A DNA stretch of 64,000 nt, from positions 1 through 64,000 of the forward strand of contig CADECF010000012.1 of NCBI GenBank assembly GCA_902825775.1, in the 5' to 3' direction. The translations under genes were made by a program, and so were the position numbers. Source of the DNA: an uncultured Lysobacteraceae bacterium. Its GTDB lineage: Bacteria > Pseudomonadota > Gammaproteobacteria > Xanthomonadales > Xanthomonadaceae. This document shows, piece by piece, positions 28,764 through 43,116 of the stretch (its first letter is position 1; every line of letters starts with the position of its first letter). Below the pieces are notes generated by a model. It was not told the DNA's origin and did not search any database. It saw only the letters and a program-made list of their open reading frames with translations.

Positions 28764-29321
28764 TCACGCGTCCGGGCGCTTGAATTCCTTGTTCAACCAA
28801 TCGTCGATCAGGCGCTTCTCGTAGCGCAGCGTATCGCTACTGTTGACGGTCGGCGTACCCATCAGGAAAGCCAGATCGGTGAGCTTGCGGTCGCCTTGCG
28901 CGATGACGCGGCCATCCGCGGCGGTGAGCGTGAAGCCGAGTTCGATCCGCGGCGGATAGATGTCGCGAACGAAGCGGGTCGAACTCGCGTTGGCGCCGCG
29001 CCATGGCTCGAACTGTCCTGCACGGCGGATGTCGTGGATGGTGACCGACAGTCGCTCGCCCGCAGGCAGGCGCTGCTCCGCGCGCTTGCGCAAATGGTTG
29101 GCCAACTGCTGCACCCAATCGCCGCGCTTGGCTTCCCAGCGGTTGTTGCTTTGGCGTATTTCTGCGAATTGCGCGGGATCGTCCCAAGCGACGTCGACCC
29201 GGCCCTCCGCGGGCAGGCTGCGCGGCGCTTTGGGGTCGGTCACGTCCGAGATCTTAGCGGCTGCCGGGGCGGTCAGCAGTGCGCCCAGGAACAGCGCTGG
29301 GATGAGGGTCGAGAACTTCAT
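28764..29321 (-). CDS. Exported DUF3016-like protein
   Basis: A 185-aa protein from ATG 29321, chosen for AGGAG upstream and the signal peptide KFSTLIPALFLGALLTAPAA. Conserved-looking blocks: GRVDVAWDDPAQFAEIR, ANHLRKRAEQRLPAGERLSV and YPPRIELGFTLTAADGRVI, which match DUF3016. Function unknown; periplasmic location is expected. Confidence 0.8.
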   Translation of the reverse strand: MKFSTLIPALFLGALLTAPAAAKISDVTDPKAPRSLPAEGRVDVAWDDPAQFAEIRQSNNRWEAKRGDWVQQLANHLRKRAEQRLPAGERLSVTIHDIRRAGQFEPWRGANASSTRFVRDIYPPRIELGFTLTAADGRVIAQGDRKLTDLAFLMGTPTVNSSDTLRYEKRLIDDWLNKEFKRPDA

Positions 29322-29449
29322 GGCGATACTCCTGCATGGAGCGATGACGATGATTCTGGACCTCTTTGCGGGGGCTGCAACCATCCTTCGATAGGGATCC
29401 GCGCGCTTGTTGTCATGCATTCAAGATCGGGTTAGCGGACGTTATGGCG

Positions 29450-29512: not shown

Positions 29513-30733
29513 TCATCCTTTCACGCACAGCGCCTGACGCAAGGTGTGCACCACTTCCACCAAGTCGCTTTGCGCGGCCATGACCGCATCGATCGACTTG
29601 TAGGCGGCCGGCGATTCGTCGATCACCGCCGCATCCTTGCGGCATTCGACGTGCGCCGTCGCTTCCCGGTGCTGCGCCAGCGTGATCTGCTGGCGCGCGG
29701 CGGTACGGCTCATCACGCGGCCGGCGCCGTGGCTGCAGCTGTGGAAGCTGTCCGCATTGCCCTTGCCGCGCACGATGTAGCTGCGCGTGCCCATGCTGCC
29801 CGGGATGATGCCAAGCTCGCCTTCGCGCGCGCTGACCGCGCCCTTGCGGGTGACCAGCAGCGATTCGCCGCCGTGCGTCTCGCGCTGCACGTAGTTGTGG
29901 TGGCAGTTGACCGCCATCTTCTCCAACTGGAACTTCGGCAAACGGTGGCGCATCTCGTGCAGCACCCGCGCCATCATCGCCTCGCGGTTGTGGCGCGCGT
30001 AATCCTGCGCCCACGACACCGCTTCCACGTAATCGTCGAACAGCGGCTCGCCTTCCATGAAGAAGGCCAGGTCCTTGTCCGGCAGATGGAAGCCGAGCAC
30101 GCGGTGCGCCAACTGCTCGCGCGCGCGCTCGATGAAGTAGGTGCCGATCAGGTTGCCGGTGCCGCGCGAACCGCTGTGCAGCATCACCCACACCGCATCG
30201 GCCTCGTCCAGGCAGACTTCGATGAAGTGGTTGCCGCCGCCCAGTGTGCCGATCTGGCGATCGAGCTTGTCGGTGCGGATTTTGCGGTGTTTGGCCTTGA
30301 TCGCCTCCAATCCCGCCATCAGTCCCGATTGCGCCACGCGCGTCTCGTGGCTGTCCGGTAGCCTGCGATGCTCGCCGCCGGGGCCGTTGCCGACCGGCAC
30401 GCTGCGTTCGATGGACGAACGCAACTGCGCCAGGTTATCGGGCAGGTCGCTCGCGCGCAGCGTGGTCCGCACCGCGGCCATGCCGCAGCCGATGTCGACG
30501 CCGACCGCGGCCGGGATGATCGCGCCGCGGGTCGGGATCACCGAACCCACCGTCGCGCCCTTGCCCAGATGCACGTCCGGCATCACCGCCACCCACGGCC
30601 CGACGAACGGGATAGCGGCGATGTTGCGCAGCTGCGCGTGGGCCTGGTCTTCCAGCGGCACGCCGCGCACCCAGCCCTTGATCGGCGTGGCGCTGCCTTC
30701 GGCGTGCAGCCATTCGAAAGTTTGCGTGTTCAT
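29513..30733 (-). CDS. rtcB: RNA-splicing ligase RtcB
   Basis: A 406-aa GTP- and manganese-dependent RNA ligase joining 2',3'-cyclic phosphate (or 3'-phosphate) and 5'-OH ends, as made by many toxin RNases. Motifs: PDVHLGKGATVGSVIP, GVDIGCGMAAVRT (metal-binding Cys), GGGNHFIEV, HSGSRGTGN, VNCHHNYVQRETHGG and CSHGAGRVMSR with the His that is guanylylated. The ATG at 30733 has AGGAGAC upstream. It is the last gene of the operon slipin, 258-aa unknown, rtcB; no RtcR or RtcA gene is seen in the window. Confidence 0.96.
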   Translation of the reverse strand: MNTQTFEWLHAEGSATPIKGWVRGVPLEDQAHAQLRNIAAIPFVGPWVAVMPDVHLGKGATVGSVIPTRGAIIPAAVGVDIGCGMAAVRTTLRASDLPDNLAQLRSSIERSVPVGNGPGGEHRRLPDSHETRVAQSGLMAGLEAIKAKHRKIRTDKLDRQIGTLGGGNHFIEVCLDEADAVWVMLHSGSRGTGNLIGTYFIERAREQLAHRVLGFHLPDKDLAFFMEGEPLFDDYVEAVSWAQDYARHNREAMMARVLHEMRHRLPKFQLEKMAVNCHHNYVQRETHGGESLLVTRKGAVSAREGELGIIPGSMGTRSYIVRGKGNADSFHSCSHGAGRVMSRTAARQQITLAQHREATAHVECRKDAAVIDESPAAYKSIDAVMAAQSDLVEVVHTLRQALCVKG

Positions 30734-30800
30734 GACTGTCTCCTTGTCGAGCCGCGTCATGGTCGTCGCGGCCCACTATGGTCTTTATGCTCGATGTCCA

Positions 30801-31577
30801 TCAACCGTTGTCGTTGCTCAGCCCATACAGCCGCAGCTCGCGCGCATTCAGCTGACGCTTGCGACAGGCATAGACGTCGTGACGACCGAACAGCGTCTGA
30901 TTGCTCGCGACGCCTTTCTTGTCCTGCCAGTCCGGGCATTGCGAGGGTTCGCGCTGGCGCAATACATCGAAGGGCTTGGCCTGTGTGTTCGCCGCCTCCG
31001 CCACCGGCGCCAGTTCGACATGGAACCAAATGCCGGCGATCCGATGCAGTTGCCGCTTCGCATCCAGGCATCGCCGCGATTCCGATGCCGCATGCGGCGA
31101 CTGCGTCGTCGACCGCCGGTATTCGCGCCGGGCCTTTTCGCGCCATCGGTTCACTCTCAACAACCCACTCTTGGGATCGACATAGAATCTGGGCCGCCAA
31201 TAGCCTTCCAACGGTTGCGGGCCGCGCCATTCGTCCGCGGCGCACAGCACACCGTCGATGTCTACGACTGCGATAGCGACGAAGTCCTTAAGATGCTGGT
31301 GGATGTGTTGCTGCACAGTGTTGCGACGGTCGATACCCGCGCAAATCTCGGCGTACACCTTGTCCCACGGACGGCCGACATTGGCCGCGAGATAACGTTC
31401 CAGCGGGCGCAGATTCTCGTTCAGCCATTTGCGGGAGGCATGCCGTCGACGCAGGCCTTCCTGCATCGGCGATTCCTCGAGGTCCGCGGGTAGCCGCGAT
31501 CCGTTCGCGCCATGTCCACCACGGCGAGGGCGTTCGACGATCACTTTGTACATATCCTTGCGCATGACACGTTCCAT
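30801..31577 (-). CDS. Conserved-looking unknown protein between slipin and rtcB
   Basis: About 258 aa if read from the ATG at 31577 (MERVMRKDMYKVIVERPRRGG); later ATGs at 31565 and 31553 are possible. Basic, soluble. Readable parts are MQEGLRRRHASRKWLNENL, PLERYLAANVGRPWDKVYAE and HQHLKDFVAIAVVDIDG, then FYVDPKSGLLRVNRW. The second half is basic and could bind RNA; that is inference. It lies 47 bases after slipin and 67 before rtcB on the same strand. I do not know the family's function. Confidence 0.75.
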   Translation of the reverse strand: MERVMRKDMYKVIVERPRRGGHGANGSRLPADLEESPMQEGLRRRHASRKWLNENLRPLERYLAANVGRPWDKVYAEICAGIDRRNTVQQHIHQHLKDFVAIAVVDIDGVLCAADEWRGPQPLEGYWRPRFYVDPKSGLLRVNRWREKARREYRRSTTQSPHAASESRRCLDAKRQLHRIAGIWFHVELAPVAEAANTQAKPFDVLRQREPSQCPDWQDKKGVASNQTLFGRHDVYACRKRQLNARELRLYGLSNDNG

Positions 31578-31624: not shown

Positions 31625-32755
31625 TTACTGCTTCAGGGTCACCAGCTGCTTCAGCACGCCATCCAGGCCGCCGAACACGGTGAGCTTGTCGATCTTCTCG
31701 GTGACCTTTTCCAAGGCCTCGAGCTCCTTCAGGCGCAGCAACGTCGGACTCTCGTCGACCAGCTTCGCGGTGTTGAGCAGGGAACGCGTCGCGTTCGCCT
31801 CCTCGCGACGGCGGATGACGTTGGCCTGGGCCGCCTTCTCCGCCTGCACCACGCTGTTGAGGATGTCCTTCATCTCGCCCGGCAGGATCACGTCCTTCAC
31901 GCCCACGCCGAGCACCTCGAGGCCGAACTCGCCGACCTTGCCGCGCACGTAGCCGAAAATGTCGGCGTCGAGCGAAGCCTTGTCGCCGAGCAGTTCGTCC
32001 AGCGTCTTGGCGGAGACCGCCTTGCGCAGGCCGTACTGCAGCTCGCGGTACAGGTGATCGCCGAACTTGGCCACCTTGGTGCGCGCGGCGACCGGGTCGG
32101 TCACGCGCATGCTGGCGGCCAGGTTGACGCGCAGGCTGACCTTGTCGCGGGTCAACAGCTCCTGACCCGATACTTCGACCGACTGCACGCGCAACTCGAT
32201 CACCTCGGCCGCCACGTTCTTCTGGAAGTTCCAGAAGGCGTAGGCGCCCGGCGCCAGCGTGCGCGCAAGCTTGCCGTCGACGAACACCAGGCCCGCCGAC
32301 TCCGCCGGCACTTCCACCGCCACCGCGACCTTGGACAATAGGCCGAGCTGGCGCAGACGTGCGGCGACGTCGGCGCGGACTTCGAGGCCGTCGGCCAGCG
32401 ACACGCGCTGCACCTCGACCCGGACCAGGCCGCGCCAATACAGCCTGCGCGCGCCCGGTGCGAGCACATCCTCGAGCTTGCCGTTCTTCAGCACCAGGCC
32501 AACTTCGTCGGCACCGATGTCGGCATGCACGAAAGTCTCGTCAAGCCGCTCGCCGAGACGTGCGATCAGCGCGTCGACGTCGTGGCCGGCGTACTCCGGC
32601 GCGGCGATGTTGAAGGTCCGCACTTCGACGCGCTTGAGCGGATCGAAGATGCGGTACACGCCCGCGTCGAGCACGCGCTCGAATTGACGGTTGCGATACA
32701 CCAGGCCGCGCTCGCCGTCGCCGATCACGACCCTCTTGGTCCAGAACATGGGCAT
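31625..32755 (-). CDS. Slipin family (SPFH/band 7) protein
   Basis: A 376-aa protein. SPFH-type blocks include IGDGERGLVYRNRQFERVL, EVPAESAGLVFVDGKLARTL, LLTRDKVSLRVNLAASMRV and VLGVGVKDVILPGEMKDI, and the C-terminal coiled coil runs through VQAEKAAQANVIRRREEANATRSLL. It has no clear N-terminal membrane hairpin. GGAG lies two bases before the first ATG (32755) but eight before the second (32749), so MFWTKRVV may be the true start. SPFH proteins form ring-shaped scaffolds. It heads the operon with RtcB. Confidence 0.88.
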   Translation of the reverse strand: MPMFWTKRVVIGDGERGLVYRNRQFERVLDAGVYRIFDPLKRVEVRTFNIAAPEYAGHDVDALIARLGERLDETFVHADIGADEVGLVLKNGKLEDVLAPGARRLYWRGLVRVEVQRVSLADGLEVRADVAARLRQLGLLSKVAVAVEVPAESAGLVFVDGKLARTLAPGAYAFWNFQKNVAAEVIELRVQSVEVSGQELLTRDKVSLRVNLAASMRVTDPVAARTKVAKFGDHLYRELQYGLRKAVSAKTLDELLGDKASLDADIFGYVRGKVGEFGLEVLGVGVKDVILPGEMKDILNSVVQAEKAAQANVIRRREEANATRSLLNTAKLVDESPTLLRLKELEALEKVTEKIDKLTVFGGLDGVLKQLVTLKQ

Positions 32756-32822: not shown

Positions 32823-32851
32823 TAAAAATAAATAAAAGGGGAAACGCCCCT
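32823..32851 (-). terminator. Terminator-like hairpin upstream of slipin
   Basis: On the minus strand AGGGG, loop CGTTT, CCCCT is followed by TTTATTTATTTTT. The stem is only five pairs but GC-rich with a long U-tract. It lies between the tRNA-like RNA segment and the slipin start, so it either ends a separate ncRNA or attenuates read-through into the operon. Confidence 0.65.
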
Positions 32852-32987
32852 GACGCCGATGCCGCGGAACGATCGCGCTGTCCGCGAGGAGGTCTATCCT
32901 TTTCCAGGTCGTCGCGATGCAATGCGATAACGCGTTCCAAGACAAACCCGCGCGCTTCGAGGACGAAGGCCCGGCGACATCGCCGTT

Positions 32988-33039
32988 GCGGCGTTCCGTT
33001 GCGCGATGCGCCGCAGCGCATCGTTTGGCGGAACGCCGC
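32988..33039 (-). ncRNA. Two-tier long hairpin in the slipin-rtcB leader
   Basis: GCGGCGTTCCG at 32988-32998 pairs exactly with CGGAACGCCGC at 33029-33039 (11 pairs). Inside, CGATGCG at 33004-33010 pairs with CGCATCG at 33017-33023. It lies downstream of the tRNA mimics and before the terminator. Between it and slipin no gene is visible. Confidence 0.65.
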
Positions 33040-33058
33040 ACGGGGCGTTTCCTGTTGT

Positions 33059-33072
33059 GGGACTTTCGTCCC
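33059..33072 (-). ncRNA. GNRA-capped hairpin
   Basis: On the minus strand GGGAC-GAAA-GTCCC, five GC-rich pairs closed by a GAAA tetraloop. It directly follows the Tyr-like anticodon hairpin and repeats the tetraloop seen in tRNA mimic B. Confidence 0.7.
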
Positions 33073-33078
33073 GTGTTT

Positions 33079-33095
33079 CCAGATTTACAGTCTGG
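33079..33095 (-). ncRNA. tRNA-Tyr-like anticodon stem-loop
   Basis: On the minus strand CCAGA-CTGTAAA-TCTGG. The seven-base loop CTGTAAA equals the anticodon loop of bacterial tRNA-Tyr (anticodon GUA), and the stem CAGA/TCTG also equals that of E. coli tRNA-Tyr. The CCAGA arm (33091-33095) can instead pair with TCTGG at 33162-33166, the 5' end of tRNA mimic A, so the two folds exclude each other. Confidence 0.65.
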
Positions 33096-33166
33096 GTTTG
33101 GAGCGGGATTTGAACCCGCGACTCTCGGTGTCTAGACCGATGCTCTACCCGTCTGAGCTATCCAGA
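33091..33166 (-). ncRNA. tRNA-like element A with six-base anticodon loop
   Basis: Read on the minus strand, it has a D-arm GCTC...GAGC with GGG in the loop, an anticodon-type arm TCGGT-CTAGAC-ACCGA (six-base loop in place of seven), a five-base variable region GAGTC, and a canonical T-arm GCGGG-TTCAAAT-CCCGC. The acceptor is imperfect: either TGGA with TCCA, or TCTGG with CCAGA seven bases further on. It therefore looks like a tRNA mimic, not a working tRNA. It abuts element B. Confidence 0.75.
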
Positions 33167-33239
33167 GGTGGACGAACCGGATTCGAACCGGCGGCCTGCG
33201 GCTTTCGCCGCTGCTCTCACCTGACTGAGCTACCGTCCT
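33167..33239 (-). ncRNA. tRNA-like element B with GAAA tetraloop in place of anticodon
   Basis: Read on the minus strand, acceptor GGACGG pairs with TCGTCC (five Watson-Crick pairs plus G-U), followed by ACC. The D-arm GCTC...GAGC and T-arm GCCGG-TTCGAAT-CCGGT are canonical. The anticodon arm is GCGGC-GAAA-GCCGC, a five-pair stem with a GNRA tetraloop, so there is no anticodon and it cannot decode. The 3' ACC runs straight into element A. It stands about 410 bases upstream of the slipin start on the same strand. Confidence 0.8.
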
Positions 33240-33243
33240 CGCG

Positions 33244-33542
33244 AAACACCTTCAAACAGCCTCGGGCATACGCCACGGCAACGCCGCGCGCACCGGACGG
33301 GCATGGGAACCCGTACCGCTAGAAACCGTTCGAACGATGTTTCGCATTGGCGCCTCGACAAGCGCCAATCCTTGTGCGCGACCCGATTGCATCGGCGTGT
33401 GCCGCCCGCCGCCCGTGCCCAGCATCCGGGCACAGCGCTTGCGCGCCTCACAGCGGAAATCCCTTTGTCGGGCAGTCCTTGCCCGGATGCTGGGATGCGG
33501 ATCGGTCGTGCGAAAACTTCAAGTGTCTCCATTGCGAACCCA
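33244..33542. other. Non-coding structured region upstream of the tRNA mimics
   Basis: No gene is visible in about 300 bases. A 15-base arm at 33418-33432 (CCCAGCATCCGGGCA) has its exact complement at 33480-33494. A shorter hairpin ATTGGCGC/GCGCCAAT lies at about 33344-33368. The promoter of the minus-strand RNA should lie in the part next to 33244, but I cannot name its boxes. Confidence 0.5.
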
Positions 33543-33581
33543 CAAAAGAAAACGCCCCCGGATGCGGCATCCGAGGGCGTT
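33543..33581 (-). terminator. Intrinsic terminator
   Basis: On the minus strand AACGCCC pairs with GGGCGTT, with an inner GGATG/CATCC stem, followed by TTCTTTTG. It lies 45 bases after the small minus-strand ORF at 33626-33742, which supports that ORF being transcribed. Confidence 0.75.
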
Positions 33582-33625
33582 CGCGTTCCTCGGAGATCGG
33601 GGCGACCGATCTCCAAAGCGGGAAA

Positions 33626-33742
33626 TCAGTCGAATAAGGTCGTGCCGTCCCGCCGCGCGGTTGCGCGCAGCGCGAGATAGCCCGCATCGCGCTGTTCGCG
33701 CGAGGTGCATGGCTTGGCTGCGATGTGGAAGACGGGGTTCAT
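33626..33742 (-). CDS. Possible 38-aa protein
   Basis: ATG at 33742 gives MNPVFHIAAKPCTSREQRDA and ends LRATARRDGTTLFD before a stop. Codon use is host-like with G/C in third positions, and a clear terminator follows on the same strand. No Shine-Dalgarno is visible. Family unknown. Confidence 0.4.
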   Translation of the reverse strand: MNPVFHIAAKPCTSREQRDAGYLALRATARRDGTTLFD

Positions 33743-33779: not shown

Positions 33780-33911
33780 TTGGGCGCGCAACATAACCAC
33801 ATGCTTTATCGAATGCAAGCATTTTTTCGCGCGGCGGACGAACGGCGACATCCGTCGGTATCGGCGGCGATTAGAATGACGCCGCGGCACGCACGAAAAC
33901 AGGAAAGCGAG

Positions 33912-38238: not shown

Positions 38239-41200
38239 ATGCGCATCAACCGTTTTGCCGTTCGGGCGCAAGCCTTTGCAGTCGCTTCGCTTTTTTCATT
38301 GGCCTGTACCGTCGCGCTCGCTCAAACCACGATCCCGCAGGAATACGACAAGACCATCCAATCCGCGCAAGCCGTCGGTGCATTGGGCACGGATCTGTTC
38401 GGCGAGCAGACCAACTTCTATACCGGCGCTACGAGTTTCTCGGCGACCGATGTCAACCTGCCTGGCAACAACTCCCTGCCGGTCCAGATCGGCCGACGCC
38501 TGGTCGTGCAAAGCCGCGAAGACGGTGATTTGTCGTATATGACCACCAGTCCCTTCGGCGATTGGGAGCTGGACATCCCGCATCTGCACGGCACTTTCGC
38601 GGCCAATACGGGCTGGCAGGTGACCAATTTCAGCCCGATGGACGGCTGGGGCGATCCGAACCAGCGCTGCTCGGCCAAAGGCCTGCGCGATGCCGTGACG
38701 ACTCAAGGTACGTTCGGCGGCCTATGGCAAGGCAGCCAGTACTGGCATGGCTATCACCTGTATGCCCCGGGCATGGGCGATCAGGAAATGCTTAAGGTCA
38801 ACACGGCCAACAACCCTCATTTTCCCAGCGACGGCAAAGACTATCGCTGGGTCACCAATAACCAGTGGTACTTCTCCTGTTTATCCGCTACCGCGAACGG
38901 CGTGCCCGGTGAAGGCTTTCTGGCGATCGCCCCGGACGGCACGCGCACTACCTTCAACTGGATCGTGCAGACCGGCACCTCGCCCATCGTCAAGCAACTG
39001 GGCAAAGCCGATCCGATCGGCGGCACGCTATCGTCGGGTGCCGGCGGGCTAAGGCCGGGCATGCGGCCACGTTTTCCGGTCGGCGACAACACCAGCCTGA
39101 GTCGCGTGGAAGTCTGGATCTTGCCGACCAAGGTCGAAGACCGCTTCGGCAATACGGTCACGTACACGTACGATCCGGCAAAACCCTGGCGACTGACCAA
39201 GATCGCAGCCAGCGATGGTCGCCAACTCACGATGGCGTACAACGGCAACGGGCACATCGCCTCCGTGTCCGACGGCACACGCACTTGGACCTATACGTAT
39301 AACGGGCACGCGCTCACGGCGGTGACCTTGCCAGACGCGTCGAAGTGGACGATCGCGTTCTCTGGTTTGCTAGCAGCCCATACCGAGCCGCGCCAAGACC
39401 AAACGGTGGCGTTGTGTTCGCTGCGCAGCTCATACACCACGCAGTCCACCGCCACTGGCACGATCACTCATCCCTCCGGCGCGGTGGGCGAGTTCAAATT
39501 CAAATCGCAGCTGCATGGGCGCTCTTACGTACCCAAGGTCTGCGTCAAGCCGGACCCGTTCGGCGAGGCCGATTACGCCAAGTTCCCTTACCTGTACGAC
39601 GTGGTCGGCCTGATTCAGAAGAAGATCACCGGCCCGGGCCTGCCTGCTTACCAGTGGAACTACAGCTACGGCGCACCGAACAATAGTTGGGCCGAGAACT
39701 GTCCCAATAACAGCTGCGCGGCCACCAAAACAGTGGAAGTGGCCGGCCCTGGCGAGTTCGTGCGCTACACCTTCGGCAATAAATACCTGGAAACCGACGG
39801 CAAGCTGCTCAAAGTGGAGCGCGGCGCCAGCGCAAACGCGATCTTGCGAACCGACACCACCAGCTACTTGCTGAACCCCGCCGGACAGCCCTATCCGGCA
39901 GTAGTCGGCGCCAGCCCCTATGAACGTGGTGACCGAACGGCGGAGAAATTGACGCCAGTCCTGCAGCGCCAAATCATCCAGCAAGGGACGACCTTCACTT
40001 GGCTGGCTCAAGGTTTCGATCCGTACGCCAACCCGACCAAGGCGACTCGTTCCAGCACGCTGGGTTATTCGCGTACCGATGTCACCGCCTATCACCACAA
40101 CACAAGCCTATGGGTCATCGGTCAAGCGGCCTCATCTACCAACAGTAATACGGGTCTGGTCGAATCCAAGACCGACTACGACGCGCTGGCCCGCCCGTGG
40201 AAGACGTACGCCTTCGGCAAGCTGCAGCAGACTTTGGCCTACAACGCCGACGGCACGCTGCTCAACGTCAAGGATGGCAAGAACAACACGACCACCTTCG
40301 CCACCTGGAAGCGCGGCCTCCCGCAGAAGATCACCTTCGCCGATGCCAAATCCAAATCCGCTGTAGTCAACAATATCGGCGGCCTGGATTCGGTCACCGA
40401 CGAGAACGGTTACACGACGAATTACGCCTACGATCCTATCGGCCGGCTCAAGACCATCGACTACCCCGATGCCGATACCGTCAACTGGACCAGCACTTCG
40501 CTTAGCTTCGCCAAGTCCAATACCGCGGCTTACGGTTTACCGGCCGGACACTGGCGTCAAACCATCCAAACCGGCAATGGTTATCAGGTCACCTACTTTG
40601 ATGCGATGTGGCGCCCGGTCGTCGGCACCGCGTACGACAACGTCAATGTGGCCGGCACGCTCACCCAGCGGGTGACCCGCTTCGACGCACAAGGCCGGCC
40701 CACGTTCGCCTCCTATCCGCAGCGCAACCAGAATGCAGCGGTCTACAACACCTGGGCCAATCCGGTCGTCAATCCCAATGCGCAAGGCACCACGACCACG
40801 TATGACGCTTTGGGCCGCACGACGAAGGTCCAGCAAGCTAGCGAAGTCGGCGTACTGAGCACGACCACCGAATATCTGACCGGGTTCCAAACGCGGGTCA
40901 CCAACCCACGCGGCTTCAAGACCACGACAAGTTTTGTGGCCTATGACCAACCCAGCACCGATCAGCCGCGCACCATCGCGCACCCCGAGGGCGCGATCAC
41001 TGAAATCTCGCGCGACGTATTCGGCAAGCCCAAAACCCTCACCCGGCGCAATGCCAACGCCACGGTTTCGTTAACCCGCAGCTACGCTTACTTCGCTAGC
41101 CAGGAACTGTGCCGCACGGTCGAGCCAGAGTCCGGTGCGACCGATTATGGCTACGACACGGCTGGGAATCTCGCCTGGTCGGCCGCGGGCTTGCCCATGA

Positions 41201-43116
41201 ATATCGGCTGCGATCTGGAAGGCGACCACTCTGCGATCGCGCCACGCCGCGTAGACCGCACCTACGATGCCCGCAATCGGCTCAAGACGCTCGTCTTCCC
41301 AGACGGCTTGGGCAACCAGAGCTTGACTTACAAGCCCGACGGCCGCTTGGCCACGCTCAGCGCCAACAATGGCGGAGGGAATCTCGTCACCACCACGTAT
41401 GAGTACAACAAGCGCCGCCTGCCGGTCAGCGAGCGGCTGACCTGGGGCGCAGTGGATTGGACGCTGGGCTACGGCTACAACACCAATGGCCACCTGGCGT
41501 CGCAGAGTCAGCCGGTCGCGCCGGTCATCACCTACCTGCCCAATGCGCTGGGTCAGCCGACCCAGGCCGGTAGCTACGCCACCGGCGTCAAGTACTACGC
41601 CAATGGCGCGATTCAACAATTCACCTATGGCAATGGGATCGTCCACACGCTGACCCAGAACGTGCGCGGTCTGCCCGACACCAGTTGCGACTTCAGCGGC
41701 ACCTGCAACGCCAGTGCCGTGCTCAACGATGGTTACGACTACGACCAGAACGGCAACGTGGCCGCGATCAGCGACGGCCGAACCCTGCACCGCGGCAACC
41801 GCACGATGACTTACGACGGCCTGGACCGGCTCAAGACCACGGTCTCGCCGATGTTCGGCAACGCGGCTTACGCCTACGACGTGCTGGACAACATGACCCG
41901 CGCCACCATCGGCGGCCCGGCCACCCGGGACCACTATTACTGCTACGACGCCCGCAACCAGCTGACCAACGTCAAGACCGGCGGCTGCAACGGCACCAGC
42001 GTGATGGGGCTGGGTTACGACGTGCAGGGCAACCTGACCCACAAGAACGGCACCGCGCTGACCTTCGACTACGGCAACCGGCTGCGCAGCGTCAGCGTGG
42101 CCGGCTCGGCCTATGTCTACGACGGCCACGGCCGGCGCGTCCGGGACACCGTGAACGGGCTCAACAAGTACAGCTTCTACAGCCAGACCGGGCAGTTGGC
42201 CTTCGCCAGCGACCTGCGCACGGGCAAGTACAGCAACTACGTCTACCTCAACGGCAGTCTGGTCGCGATAAGAGAGCAGCCGCATAACCGTGGCGCGGTA
42301 GCTACCAAATATCTTCACACCGACAGCTTGAGTACGCCGGTGGCGGTCACCGATCAAAGCAAAGTCATCATCGAGAAGAGCGAGTACGAGCCGTACGGGC
42401 ATGTGATCAACCGGCTACTCAAGGATGGACCGGATTACACAGGTCATGTCGCCGATGTAGCGACAGGGATGATCTATGCACAACAACGTTATCTACTCGG
42501 CGGCATCTTGCCGCCGGTCTGGGCAAGCGTGGATCCAGTGAGTCCGAATCCGAATACGGGTGCCAGTTTTGGACGATATCTTTACGGTATTTGGAATCCC
42601 TACCGTTTTCGCGATCCTGATGGACGCCATGTTTGTGCTGCAGACAGTACTAAGGCGCAATGCGATACCTTCAAAGAAGGACTTGCAAAAGCTGACCAGG
42701 CGTCAAGAAGCGATCGTTTGACTAAAACCCAGCAAAATAATCTAAAGGATTCTGTTGCCTTCTTTGGAAAAGAAGGTGACGACAAAGTAGTCATTTCGTT
42801 TGGAGATTTAAATGGCGACTTCGCTAGAATTAATACAGACAGGGAAGGTAGGGGGAGCGTTACCTTCGACCTGAAAGCTATTGCAGAAAAACACCCAGAG
42901 AGTTCTGGCCTAGTAAATGGATTGGCCATGAGAAGTCTTCATGAGGGTGACCATGGCGTTCGCATTATTCGAGAAGGATATCCCGCGAGTAGAGACGAAC
43001 GAATCGACAGAGAACGAAGCGGCTATCGTGCCGAGGCGTACTATCAGAAAGCATCGGATTTCCTTCTAAATGGAGGAAATATGTGGGCTCCGTGGAATTC
43101 TGGGGGATGGTTTTGA
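38239..43116 (+). CDS. RHS/YD-repeat protein with HExxH C-terminal tip
   Basis: A 1625-aa exported protein with a signal peptide (AVASLFSLACTVALA). YD/RHS repeats fill most of the length, for example GNTVTYTYDPAKPWRLTKI and YGYDTAGNLAWSAAG. The core ends with LHTDSLSTPVAVTDQ, SEYEPYGHVI, YAQQRYL and RFRDPDGRH, the usual RHS boundary. The last 150 residues (from CAADSTKAQCDTF) are AT-richer and contain MRSLHEGDHGVR, a zinc-type HExxH at H1568-H1572, with a later Glu in YRAEAYYQ. Such tips are variable toxins; metallopeptidase activity is inferred. No N-terminal PAAR or VgrG part is seen. Confidence 0.92.
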   Translation: MRINRFAVRAQAFAVASLFSLACTVALAQTTIPQEYDKTIQSAQAVGALGTDLFGEQTNFYTGATSFSATDVNLPGNNSLPVQIGRRLVVQSREDGDLSYMTTSPFGDWELDIPHLHGTFAANTGWQVTNFSPMDGWGDPNQRCSAKGLRDAVTTQGTFGGLWQGSQYWHGYHLYAPGMGDQEMLKVNTANNPHFPSDGKDYRWVTNNQWYFSCLSATANGVPGEGFLAIAPDGTRTTFNWIVQTGTSPIVKQLGKADPIGGTLSSGAGGLRPGMRPRFPVGDNTSLSRVEVWILPTKVEDRFGNTVTYTYDPAKPWRLTKIAASDGRQLTMAYNGNGHIASVSDGTRTWTYTYNGHALTAVTLPDASKWTIAFSGLLAAHTEPRQDQTVALCSLRSSYTTQSTATGTITHPSGAVGEFKFKSQLHGRSYVPKVCVKPDPFGEADYAKFPYLYDVVGLIQKKITGPGLPAYQWNYSYGAPNNSWAENCPNNSCAATKTVEVAGPGEFVRYTFGNKYLETDGKLLKVERGASANAILRTDTTSYLLNPAGQPYPAVVGASPYERGDRTAEKLTPVLQRQIIQQGTTFTWLAQGFDPYANPTKATRSSTLGYSRTDVTAYHHNTSLWVIGQAASSTNSNTGLVESKTDYDALARPWKTYAFGKLQQTLAYNADGTLLNVKDGKNNTTTFATWKRGLPQKITFADAKSKSAVVNNIGGLDSVTDENGYTTNYAYDPIGRLKTIDYPDADTVNWTSTSLSFAKSNTAAYGLPAGHWRQTIQTGNGYQVTYFDAMWRPVVGTAYDNVNVAGTLTQRVTRFDAQGRPTFASYPQRNQNAAVYNTWANPVVNPNAQGTTTTYDALGRTTKVQQASEVGVLSTTTEYLTGFQTRVTNPRGFKTTTSFVAYDQPSTDQPRTIAHPEGAITEISRDVFGKPKTLTRRNANATVSLTRSYAYFASQELCRTVEPESGATDYGYDTAGNLAWSAAGLPMNIGCDLEGDHSAIAPRRVDRTYDARNRLKTLVFPDGLGNQSLTYKPDGRLATLSANNGGGNLVTTTYEYNKRRLPVSERLTWGAVDWTLGYGYNTNGHLASQSQPVAPVITYLPNALGQPTQAGSYATGVKYYANGAIQQFTYGNGIVHTLTQNVRGLPDTSCDFSGTCNASAVLNDGYDYDQNGNVAAISDGRTLHRGNRTMTYDGLDRLKTTVSPMFGNAAYAYDVLDNMTRATIGGPATRDHYYCYDARNQLTNVKTGGCNGTSVMGLGYDVQGNLTHKNGTALTFDYGNRLRSVSVAGSAYVYDGHGRRVRDTVNGLNKYSFYSQTGQLAFASDLRTGKYSNYVYLNGSLVAIREQPHNRGAVATKYLHTDSLSTPVAVTDQSKVIIEKSEYEPYGHVINRLLKDGPDYTGHVADVATGMIYAQQRYLLGGILPPVWASVDPVSPNPNTGASFGRYLYGIWNPYRFRDPDGRHVCAADSTKAQCDTFKEGLAKADQASRSDRLTKTQQNNLKDSVAFFGKEGDDKVVISFGDLNGDFARINTDREGRGSVTFDLKAIAEKHPESSGLVNGLAMRSLHEGDHGVRIIREGYPASRDERIDRERSGYRAEAYYQKASDFLLNGGNMWAPWNSGGWF

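Follow-up and report, generated by a model that had tools for sequence, protein, structure and literature searches.

The window, i.e., the whole stretch of 64,000 nucleotides analyzed here from an uncultured Lysobacteraceae bacterium, carried on its minus strand a slipin gene (SPFH/Band 7; positions 31625–32755; PF01145, E-value = 1.8 × 10−30), an ORF encoding a 258-aa protein with no assigned family (30801–31577), and the RNA ligase gene rtcB (29513–30760; PF01139, E-value = 2.2 × 10−124). Two tRNA-like modules, B (33167–33239) and A (33094–33167), were located 5' of slipin, and the gene coordinates and Pfam matches bore out the proposal of a sequence-only reading of the same DNA that all three genes lie on the strand of the modules and downstream of both. 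The family-wide comparison was based on slipin matches of more than 280 bits, which were found in 79 of 247 Lysobacteraceae genomes (counted by eye among the matches listed), so that 78 loci were compared besides that of the window. At 76 of the 79 loci, a co-directional rtcB gene lay 3' of slipin, and none was found after slipin at the remaining three (L112, L138, and L141). The 258-aa protein had no Pfam or NCBIfam match and no convincing fold match; relatives were detected by tblastn at 19 of the 78 other slipin loci, and the gene stood between slipin and rtcB in 20 of 79, i.e., in some relatives only. Its conserved stretches were DMYKVIVERPRRGG and HIHQHL. A gene for a DUF3016 protein (28764–29420) directly followed rtcB on the same strand, and an ORF of 1625 aa with YD/RHS-like repeat sequence, as judged by eye, was present at 38239–43116. 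As regards an RtcR-controlled repair operon, the window contained RtcB and had no RtcR gene; the search for RtcR (PF06956) in the genome to which the window belongs yielded no match, with a positive E. coli control.

The tandem tRNA-like modules

Both modules were reported by ARAGORN as tRNA-???, neither receiving a functional tRNA call, and the Rfam tRNA model assigned them 44.5 and 46.4 bits (gathering score 29), so their tRNA shape is not a matter of chance. The two methods thus agree with the earlier suggestion of two abutting tRNA-shaped elements upstream of slipin, the 258-aa gene, and rtcB, neither of them a normal tRNA. As read from the sequence, module B had a D-arm (GCTC/GAGC), a T-arm (GCCGG/CCGGT), and, where the anticodon arm is expected, a five-pair stem closed by a tetraloop (GCGGC-GAAA-GCCGC), all as previously described for it; its acceptor, which had been called canonical, consisted of six pairs and an A-A mismatch instead of seven pairs. 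Module A was seen much as described before, with normal D- and T-arms, a six-base loop (CTAGAC) in a position that is hypervariable among relatives, and a poor acceptor of just four pairs (TGGA/TCCA). Consequently, both a 7-nt loop with a defined anticodon and a 7-bp acceptor with CCA, as required of a functional tRNA, were lacking in the window. No CCA was encoded after module B, and N-CCA was present at this place in 27 of 46 aligned loci (counted by eye); since CCA can be added post-transcriptionally, its absence from the DNA is by itself no argument. In many relatives, ARAGORN assigned ordinary isotypes to module A, with anticodons varying from species to species. A repeat search with the A+B dimer gave two other matches in its own genome (78–79% over 56–58 nt), which are presumed to be ordinary tRNA genes.

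A larger conserved RNA in the Lysobacteraceae

Sequence conservation continued on both sides of the modules, which are the core of a larger multi-domain RNA conserved in the family of the window. On the minus strand, approximately 530 nt belong to this RNA (33372 to about 32838), its ends being those predicted from conservation and structure. Read 5' to 3', it is composed of an upstream domain, the modules B and A, the hairpins hp1 and hp2, and a downstream domain with a long-range closing helix. Rfam recognized this RNA as tRNA only. The upstream domain (33240–33372) includes a 5' hairpin and then a long-range helix (33343–33337/33249–33243) enclosing further helices. Of the two hairpins, hp1 (33079–33095) has a 7-nt loop, of the CUGUCAC type in relatives, and hp2 (33059–33072) is closed by a GNRA tetraloop. 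The downstream domain (32838–33053) is bounded by the closing helix 33042–33052/32840–32850. After this long-range helix, at 32837–32851, the sequence is rich in U, and the window additionally has a small hairpin resembling a terminator; judging by the sequence, this tract could be the end point of a discrete RNA before slipin.

The fold of this RNA is kept by compensatory change in the family, to which the covariation statistics refer. In the alignment of 46 of the 75 matched loci (A1; divergent-B and near-identical loci omitted), the segment comprising B, A, hp1, and hp2 contained 49 pairs, with 95.0% of cells paired; compensatory change was recorded at 35 pairs and in 264 cells, compared with 68.8 ± 7.8 cells in shuffled alignments and at most 36 in slid ones, so that the compensatory changes looked for since the first reading were strongly in evidence. 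They were present in nine of the ten helices of the core (helices 1–4 in module B and 5–8 in module A covarying), including six of six pairs in hp1 (90.0% of cells paired) and four of five in hp2 (96.5%). The upstream domain had 45 pairs (96.7% of cells paired) and 182 double-change cells versus 52.7 shuffled and at most 35 slid, and the downstream domain (33062–32830) had 39 pairs (91.8%) and 147 double-change cells versus 43.4 shuffled and at most 45 slid; it should be noted that the structures of both flanking domains came from RNAalifold runs on the very alignments tested, which favors them over their slid versions. The shuffle control ignores the relatedness of the sequences; the slid controls nevertheless did not exceed 45. 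Alignments A3 and A5 (the latter covering the attenuator region described below) included 34 of 74 loci each, with L104 omitted from A3 and L080 from A5, and alignment A4 included 35 of 74.

A covariance model, R1, was built from 46 loci and covered both modules together with hp1 and hp2. A match upstream of slipin was obtained at 75 of the 79 family loci, one of them weak (L129, 31.5 bits); of the four loci without a match, three had merely 115–354 nt of upstream sequence, and the fourth, the true miss L141, had a slipin of only 43% identity. ARAGORN found one or two tRNA-like elements upstream of slipin, often abutting, in 63 of 79 loci. When the 247 whole genomes were scanned, 73 matches of at least 107 bits were counted by eye among those listed, all in slipin-positive genomes; 71 were situated just upstream of slipin on its contig, and in the two other genomes (G014 and G242) the assembly was fragmented and the match lay on a contig other than that of slipin. 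Below approximately 100 bits, the model also matched other sites, and slipin-linked matches of 99.7, 91.2, and 86.5 bits fell within that range.

Further 5', the same strand carried a conserved control region, the attenuator part of which was single-copy in its own genome according to the repeat search. A promoter-like motif, TTGCAT-17-TATGTT (33790–33818), is located approximately 47 nt 5' of a 38-codon leader ORF (33626–33742; MNPVFHIAAKPC...), the stop codon of which lies about 14 nt before an attenuator hairpin, P1 (33592–33614; GGAGATCGG...CCGATCTCC); an intrinsic-terminator-like hairpin with a U tract was found by a terminator scan at 33550–33582. The attenuator motif was recognized in 67 of the 79 loci and unrecognized in 12, some of which had short upstream sequence. 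An ATG-initiated ORF stopping 11–36 nt 5' of the hairpin was present in 66 of the 67, and the leader ORF had at least 28 codons in 92.5% of the 67 loci, compared with 8.7% of base shuffles. Thus, both a leader ORF near a control hairpin and a terminator with a U tract (33582–33550), as expected of an attenuator, were found. P1 had 100% of lettered cells paired and compensatory changes in two of eight pairs, the terminator hairpin had 99.5% of cells paired and eight of 11 pairs invariant, and the mean conservation of region 33620–33530 was 74–92% per 20-base block. From its sequence, the 5' arm of the terminator, CCCTCGG, could pair alternatively with the upstream CCGAGG; the CCGAGG/CCTCGG complementarity was invariant in A5 and therefore carries no covariation signal. 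The promoter-like motif occurred in 56 of 66 family loci and in 1.2% of shuffles, its regular expression having been drawn from the same alignment, which means that this test is not independent; a stricter, first expression matched 7 of 66 loci, the generic hexamer score was 7.35 versus a background of 7.12, and a generic sigma70 scan found nothing. In our reading of these sequences, the family of the window may have replaced RtcR control by attenuation.

Slipin loci beyond the family

Relatives were sought in 369 genomes of the class, of which 21 contained slipin at E-value ≤ 10−30 (19 of these outside the family). Among the R1 matches listed, the three best out-of-family ones (117–121 bits) adjoined slipin; of the 18 out-of-family R1 loci inspected, four had slipin (L144, L145, L147, and L154) and 14 were ordinary tRNA clusters. 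Conversely, R1 matched with at least 35 bits upstream of slipin in 17 of the 19 out-of-family slipin loci (L182–L200), in one case about 1.3 kb away (L193), and in the other two (L187 and L199) no full match was obtained, just one of T-arm size. A scan of 84,980 species, with an alignment of slipin as the query, yielded at least 468 relatives, the best 80 of which were kept; by title, these were mostly Gamma- and Betaproteobacteria, with a few members of the family and one MAG labeled as Verrucomicrobia. R1 matched in 76 of these best 80, the match ending 119–584 nt before slipin; the misses were real in L248 and L252, and L249 and L284 had just 184–226 nt of upstream sequence. Together with the family loci, these matches confirm that the elements occur at other slipin loci, a tRNA-like match preceding slipin at most of the Gamma- and Betaproteobacteria loci examined. 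At the named loci, many of the matches were in the range of approximately 50–80 bits, below those of ordinary tRNA pairs, so it is the position and not the score that carries the argument there.

RtcR was found at 30 of the best 80 relatives (counted by eye, with the 36%-identity match of L234 excluded), and in many relatives a divergent RtcR gene and a sigma54-like promoter preceded the RNA. Of the 24 RtcR-adjacent loci, 23 were tested for such a promoter, L252 being left out as it had no RNA match; all 23 had one with a score of 9–10 of 11, 42–161 nt before the RNA; at two of these loci, 5% or 7% of shuffles scored as high, and at the remaining 21 no more than 2% did. Since the promoter-like sequence stands before the RNA in RtcR-type operons, RNA and slipin are probably on one transcript there. 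RlaP (PF10127, named for an RNA repair pathway) and RtcB were frequent downstream, and in several lineages rtcB was located upstream of the RNA, with the RNA still in front of slipin. For this reason, the linkage to slipin and rtcB assumed at the outset is strong but closer for slipin, and for rtcB it is not constant.

Six loci came from a plasmid collection. In Photobacterium, the element scored 118.7 bits and had RtcR and RtcB in its surroundings; it was also present in two Burkholderia loci (75.5 and 59.6 bits, with RtcR and RlaP at the first), and no element was found near slipin at the E. coli, Citrobacter, and Subdoligranulum loci. At the Citrobacter locus, a T-arm match of 9.9 bits was all that was obtained; R1 did not match the E. 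coli locus, and ARAGORN made no call at either. The E. coli leader had no Rfam match at E-value ≤ 1, and folding of the enterobacterial leader showed no clear gain over shuffles (z = −1.35 and −0.73). The E. coli (L203:5680–7919) and Citrobacter (L206:5682–7913) segments were seen to contain slipin-RlaP, a sigma54-like promoter, and, by eye, a T-arm-like stretch, with RtcR adjacent in Citrobacter; a search of 5426 E. coli genomes found the E. coli segment in 1617 of them, at a coverage of at least 80%. Slipin had no match in the phage collection at E-value 10−20.

The flanking parts of the RNA reached less far. Outside the family, and with the exception of close relatives, the upstream-domain HMM gave weak matches before the tRNA-like module (L237, E-value = 2.5 × 10−5; L243, 4.8 × 10−5; others, such as L264, 0.001–0.03), and the downstream-domain and attenuator HMMs matched at E-value < 0.01 only in Dyella-, Luteimonas-, and Lysobacter-like loci and in L253. 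The latter is the Verrucomicrobia-labeled MAG, whose slipin was 76% identical to that of the window and which matched the upstream, downstream, and attenuator regions; either a binning error or a transfer may be involved. The two hairpins were also considered as a class-wide mark. An hp1 scan was positive after 33 of 99 slipin-proximal T-arms versus 39 of 167 control T-arms, and a GNRA hairpin scan after 45 of 99 versus 36 of 167, with both hairpins in 18 versus 9 cases; this simple scan did not clearly separate the two sets, and the mark was rejected. Accordingly, hp1 and hp2 are claimed only for the family and for those individual relatives whose alignments display them.

The anticodon loops and acceptors of the elements were surveyed in 70 unique family RNAs (the second match of L120 and the weak match of L129 omitted). 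The loop of module A had seven bases in 56 of 70 RNAs, with 29 distinct anticodons and U33 in 31 of the 56; in module B, 38 of the 70 had a four-base loop, no fewer than 20 of these being GNRA, and the T-loops were nearly fixed. Overall, loops of 3–8 nt and acceptors of 4–6 pairs were found in the family, B often having a tetraloop. In 95 pairs of RNAs with 80–97% identity, the mean loop distance was 0.438 for A and 0.449 for B, compared with 0.051–0.095 for T-loops and 0.155 overall; the sequence of the anticodon loop is not maintained. A lack of constraint fits such fast-changing loops as well as active diversification does, and an arm whose shape is kept without its sequence suits a shape-reading partner or a decoy.

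Acceptors were short in the family and, elsewhere, shorter on average than those of ordinary tRNAs. Of the 77 out-of-family slipin-proximal elements, 17 had a 7-bp acceptor, the mean being 5.05 pairs, and 10 had an encoded CCA; for the other upstream tRNAs, both counts were 53 of 69, with a mean acceptor of 6.13 pairs. The family or family-like loci L249, L253, L268, L275, L279, L284, and L285 were omitted from this count. A further 22 of the 77 had six pairs, which brings those with six or seven pairs to 39, and the commonest anticodon was CAT (11 of 77), so some of the out-of-family elements may be ordinary tRNAs. Out-of-family anticodons carrying A34 (for example, ATT, AAT, AAG, and AAA) were also seen, as was TTA, which is assigned to Stop; bacteria hardly use A34 anticodons such as these, or TTA.

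Four or more tRNA calls were obtained at 12 of the best 80 relatives (counted by eye), with up to 15 in L246, and most of the additional calls look like ordinary tRNA genes. Arrays of mostly ordinary-looking tRNAs were seen upstream of the mimic and slipin at L246:1372–2966, L257:1425–3228, L253:32–3103, and L213:1564–3136. None of the 12 loci had an RtcR match within 3.5 kb or less on either side; the comparison framed for Fisher's test was 0/13 versus 30/67, with L221 taken as an array locus and L274 (three calls, RtcR present) not, and is given without a p-value. By analogy with the trn operon of Anabaena, the arrays beside slipin are possibly spare tRNAs.

Possible roles of the RNA

The reading we prefer, with a probability of roughly 0.55, is that modules B and A together form the tRNA-mimic core of a noncoding RNA that is conserved and encoded on the 5' side of slipin-type RNA-repair operons. 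Such an RNA would be made upon tRNA damage or translation stalling, the trigger acting via RtcR in many lineages and via the leader-peptide attenuator in the family of the window. It would offer the shape of a tRNA elbow and anticodon arm to slipin, to RtcB, or to the attacking nuclease, and may serve the repair complex as a partner, or as a decoy, that does not decode; the analogy is with the possible role of YrlA next to Ro and RtcB. Slipin appears to be its likeliest protein partner, because the RNA precedes slipin even where rtcB lies elsewhere.

The main rival is a cis-regulatory leader, in which the tRNA-like domains belong to a long 5' UTR and set slipin expression in response to the cleavage of tRNA, to free RtcB or slipin, or to processing by RNase P/Z, with the upstream attenuator as the other half of the control. 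We regard it as possible, though below even odds. A cis-acting leader would give identical synteny and covariation; it suits the same-strand location ahead of slipin seen at most loci, the family's leader ORF and terminator, and the sigma54-like promoter upstream elsewhere. However, RtcR operons already own a damage sensor and still keep the RNA, and a simple leader has no obvious need for two tRNA-shaped and two further domains.

More tentative than either is a specific decoy function, which we consider somewhat doubtful. The anticodon loops of the mimic, kept in shape and continually re-randomized, would be attacked by, or absorb, changing anticodon nucleases of phages, of rivals, or of the cell's own toxins, and the cleaved ends would be delivered to RtcB on a slipin scaffold.

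That the RNA is a true bacterial Y RNA of the YrlA family, with its Ro partner lost or located elsewhere, is improbable. The Rfam YrlA model matched 33112–33211 weakly (26.3 bits, E-value = 0.004), and the setting beside rtcB and, in relatives, RtcR is similar; the score is, however, far below the gathering value of 69, and a tRNA-like shape alone may explain it. None of five further loci (L201, L203, L204, L206, and L190) contained YrlA at gathering. The statement that no Ro gene is present held in the search of the window's own genome, which had no TROVE match; across 109 family genomes, TROVE matches occurred in seven, three of them over the cut-off, and all were partial, within profile positions 293–363 of 442. 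Membership of YrlA was therefore rejected on the score and the absence of Ro from this genome, and what stands of the earlier Y RNA idea is the analogy of a tRNA-like domain near rtcB.

YrlA is a tRNA-like noncoding RNA of the RtcR-type rsr-yrlBA-rtcBA operon of Salmonella with RtcB, and its competition with an anticodon nuclease has been proposed (PMC7790460). YrlA fragments were undetected in Salmonella upon tRNA cleavage (PMC7790460), which means that being a mimic does not require being cleaved as a substrate. The likeness consists in a noncoding RNA with a tRNA-like domain in an RtcR-type repair operon with RtcB; unlike YrlA, the present RNA is partnered by slipin instead of Ro, has complete D-, anticodon-, and T-arms in two tandem modules, extra structured domains, and hypervariable anticodon loops, and falls below the YrlA gathering score. 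In Anabaena, the TrcR regulon, de-repressed by translational stress, includes a tRNA gene array (the trn operon), rtcB, and a slipin gene (PMC10272220); it differs in that these are separately numbered genes under repressor control, and the accessible excerpt describes no tRNA-mimic RNA beside slipin. The tRNA-Other of Bacillus cereus, a pseudo-tRNA with no role in translation, is likewise a tRNA-shaped RNA outside translation, but it is a single element with a Trp anticodon in a genomic island and, in the portion of the article at hand, is not described in an RNA-repair operon (PMC3399842). Among the papers listed by searches of the open-licence PMC library, no title or opening part of an abstract described such an RNA. 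Gene sets of slipin, RlaP, and RtcB in RNA repair were reportedly described by Burroughs and Aravind in 2016, and the protein context found here, namely, slipin, RlaP, RtcB, and RtcR, is said to resemble theirs; that work is not known to mention such an RNA.

It is very unlikely that the elements are functional atypical tRNAs read by the ribosome: the ordinary isotypes of module A in many species and CAT as the commonest anticodon outside the family speak for such a function, and against it stand anticodons that differ among close family members, loops of 3–8 nt, tetraloops in B, acceptors of 4–6 pairs, and the A34 and TTA anticodons outside the family. Equally slight are the chances that they are decayed tRNA genes, remnants of an array or integration site that stayed by slipin and might derive from ordinary arrays such as those upstream in several relatives, since the compensatory changes in nine of ten helices, the conserved T-loops, the retention at most loci, and the class-wide linkage point to selection on structure and not to decay; a relic or chance tRNA was ruled out by covariation and slipin linkage.

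Bacterial RtcB systems repair RNA, and the RNA partners known for them are, to our knowledge, encoded next to Ro. The present RNA, conserved, structured, and several hundred nucleotides long, contains two tRNA mimics in tandem and has relatives at slipin loci in two classes, which makes it a concrete molecule to test in this respect. In many proteobacteria its shape is kept and the sequence of its anticodon loops varies freely, as might be expected if it were a partner, decoy, or sensor, so far undescribed, for the repair of broken tRNA. Annotation programs can mislabel such mimics as tRNA genes. If the decoy reading were true, lineages with spare arrays of ordinary tRNAs would have in the whole locus a tRNA-damage defence island. 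In the family of the window, the leader ORF and attenuator point to an RtcR-independent control of RNA repair.
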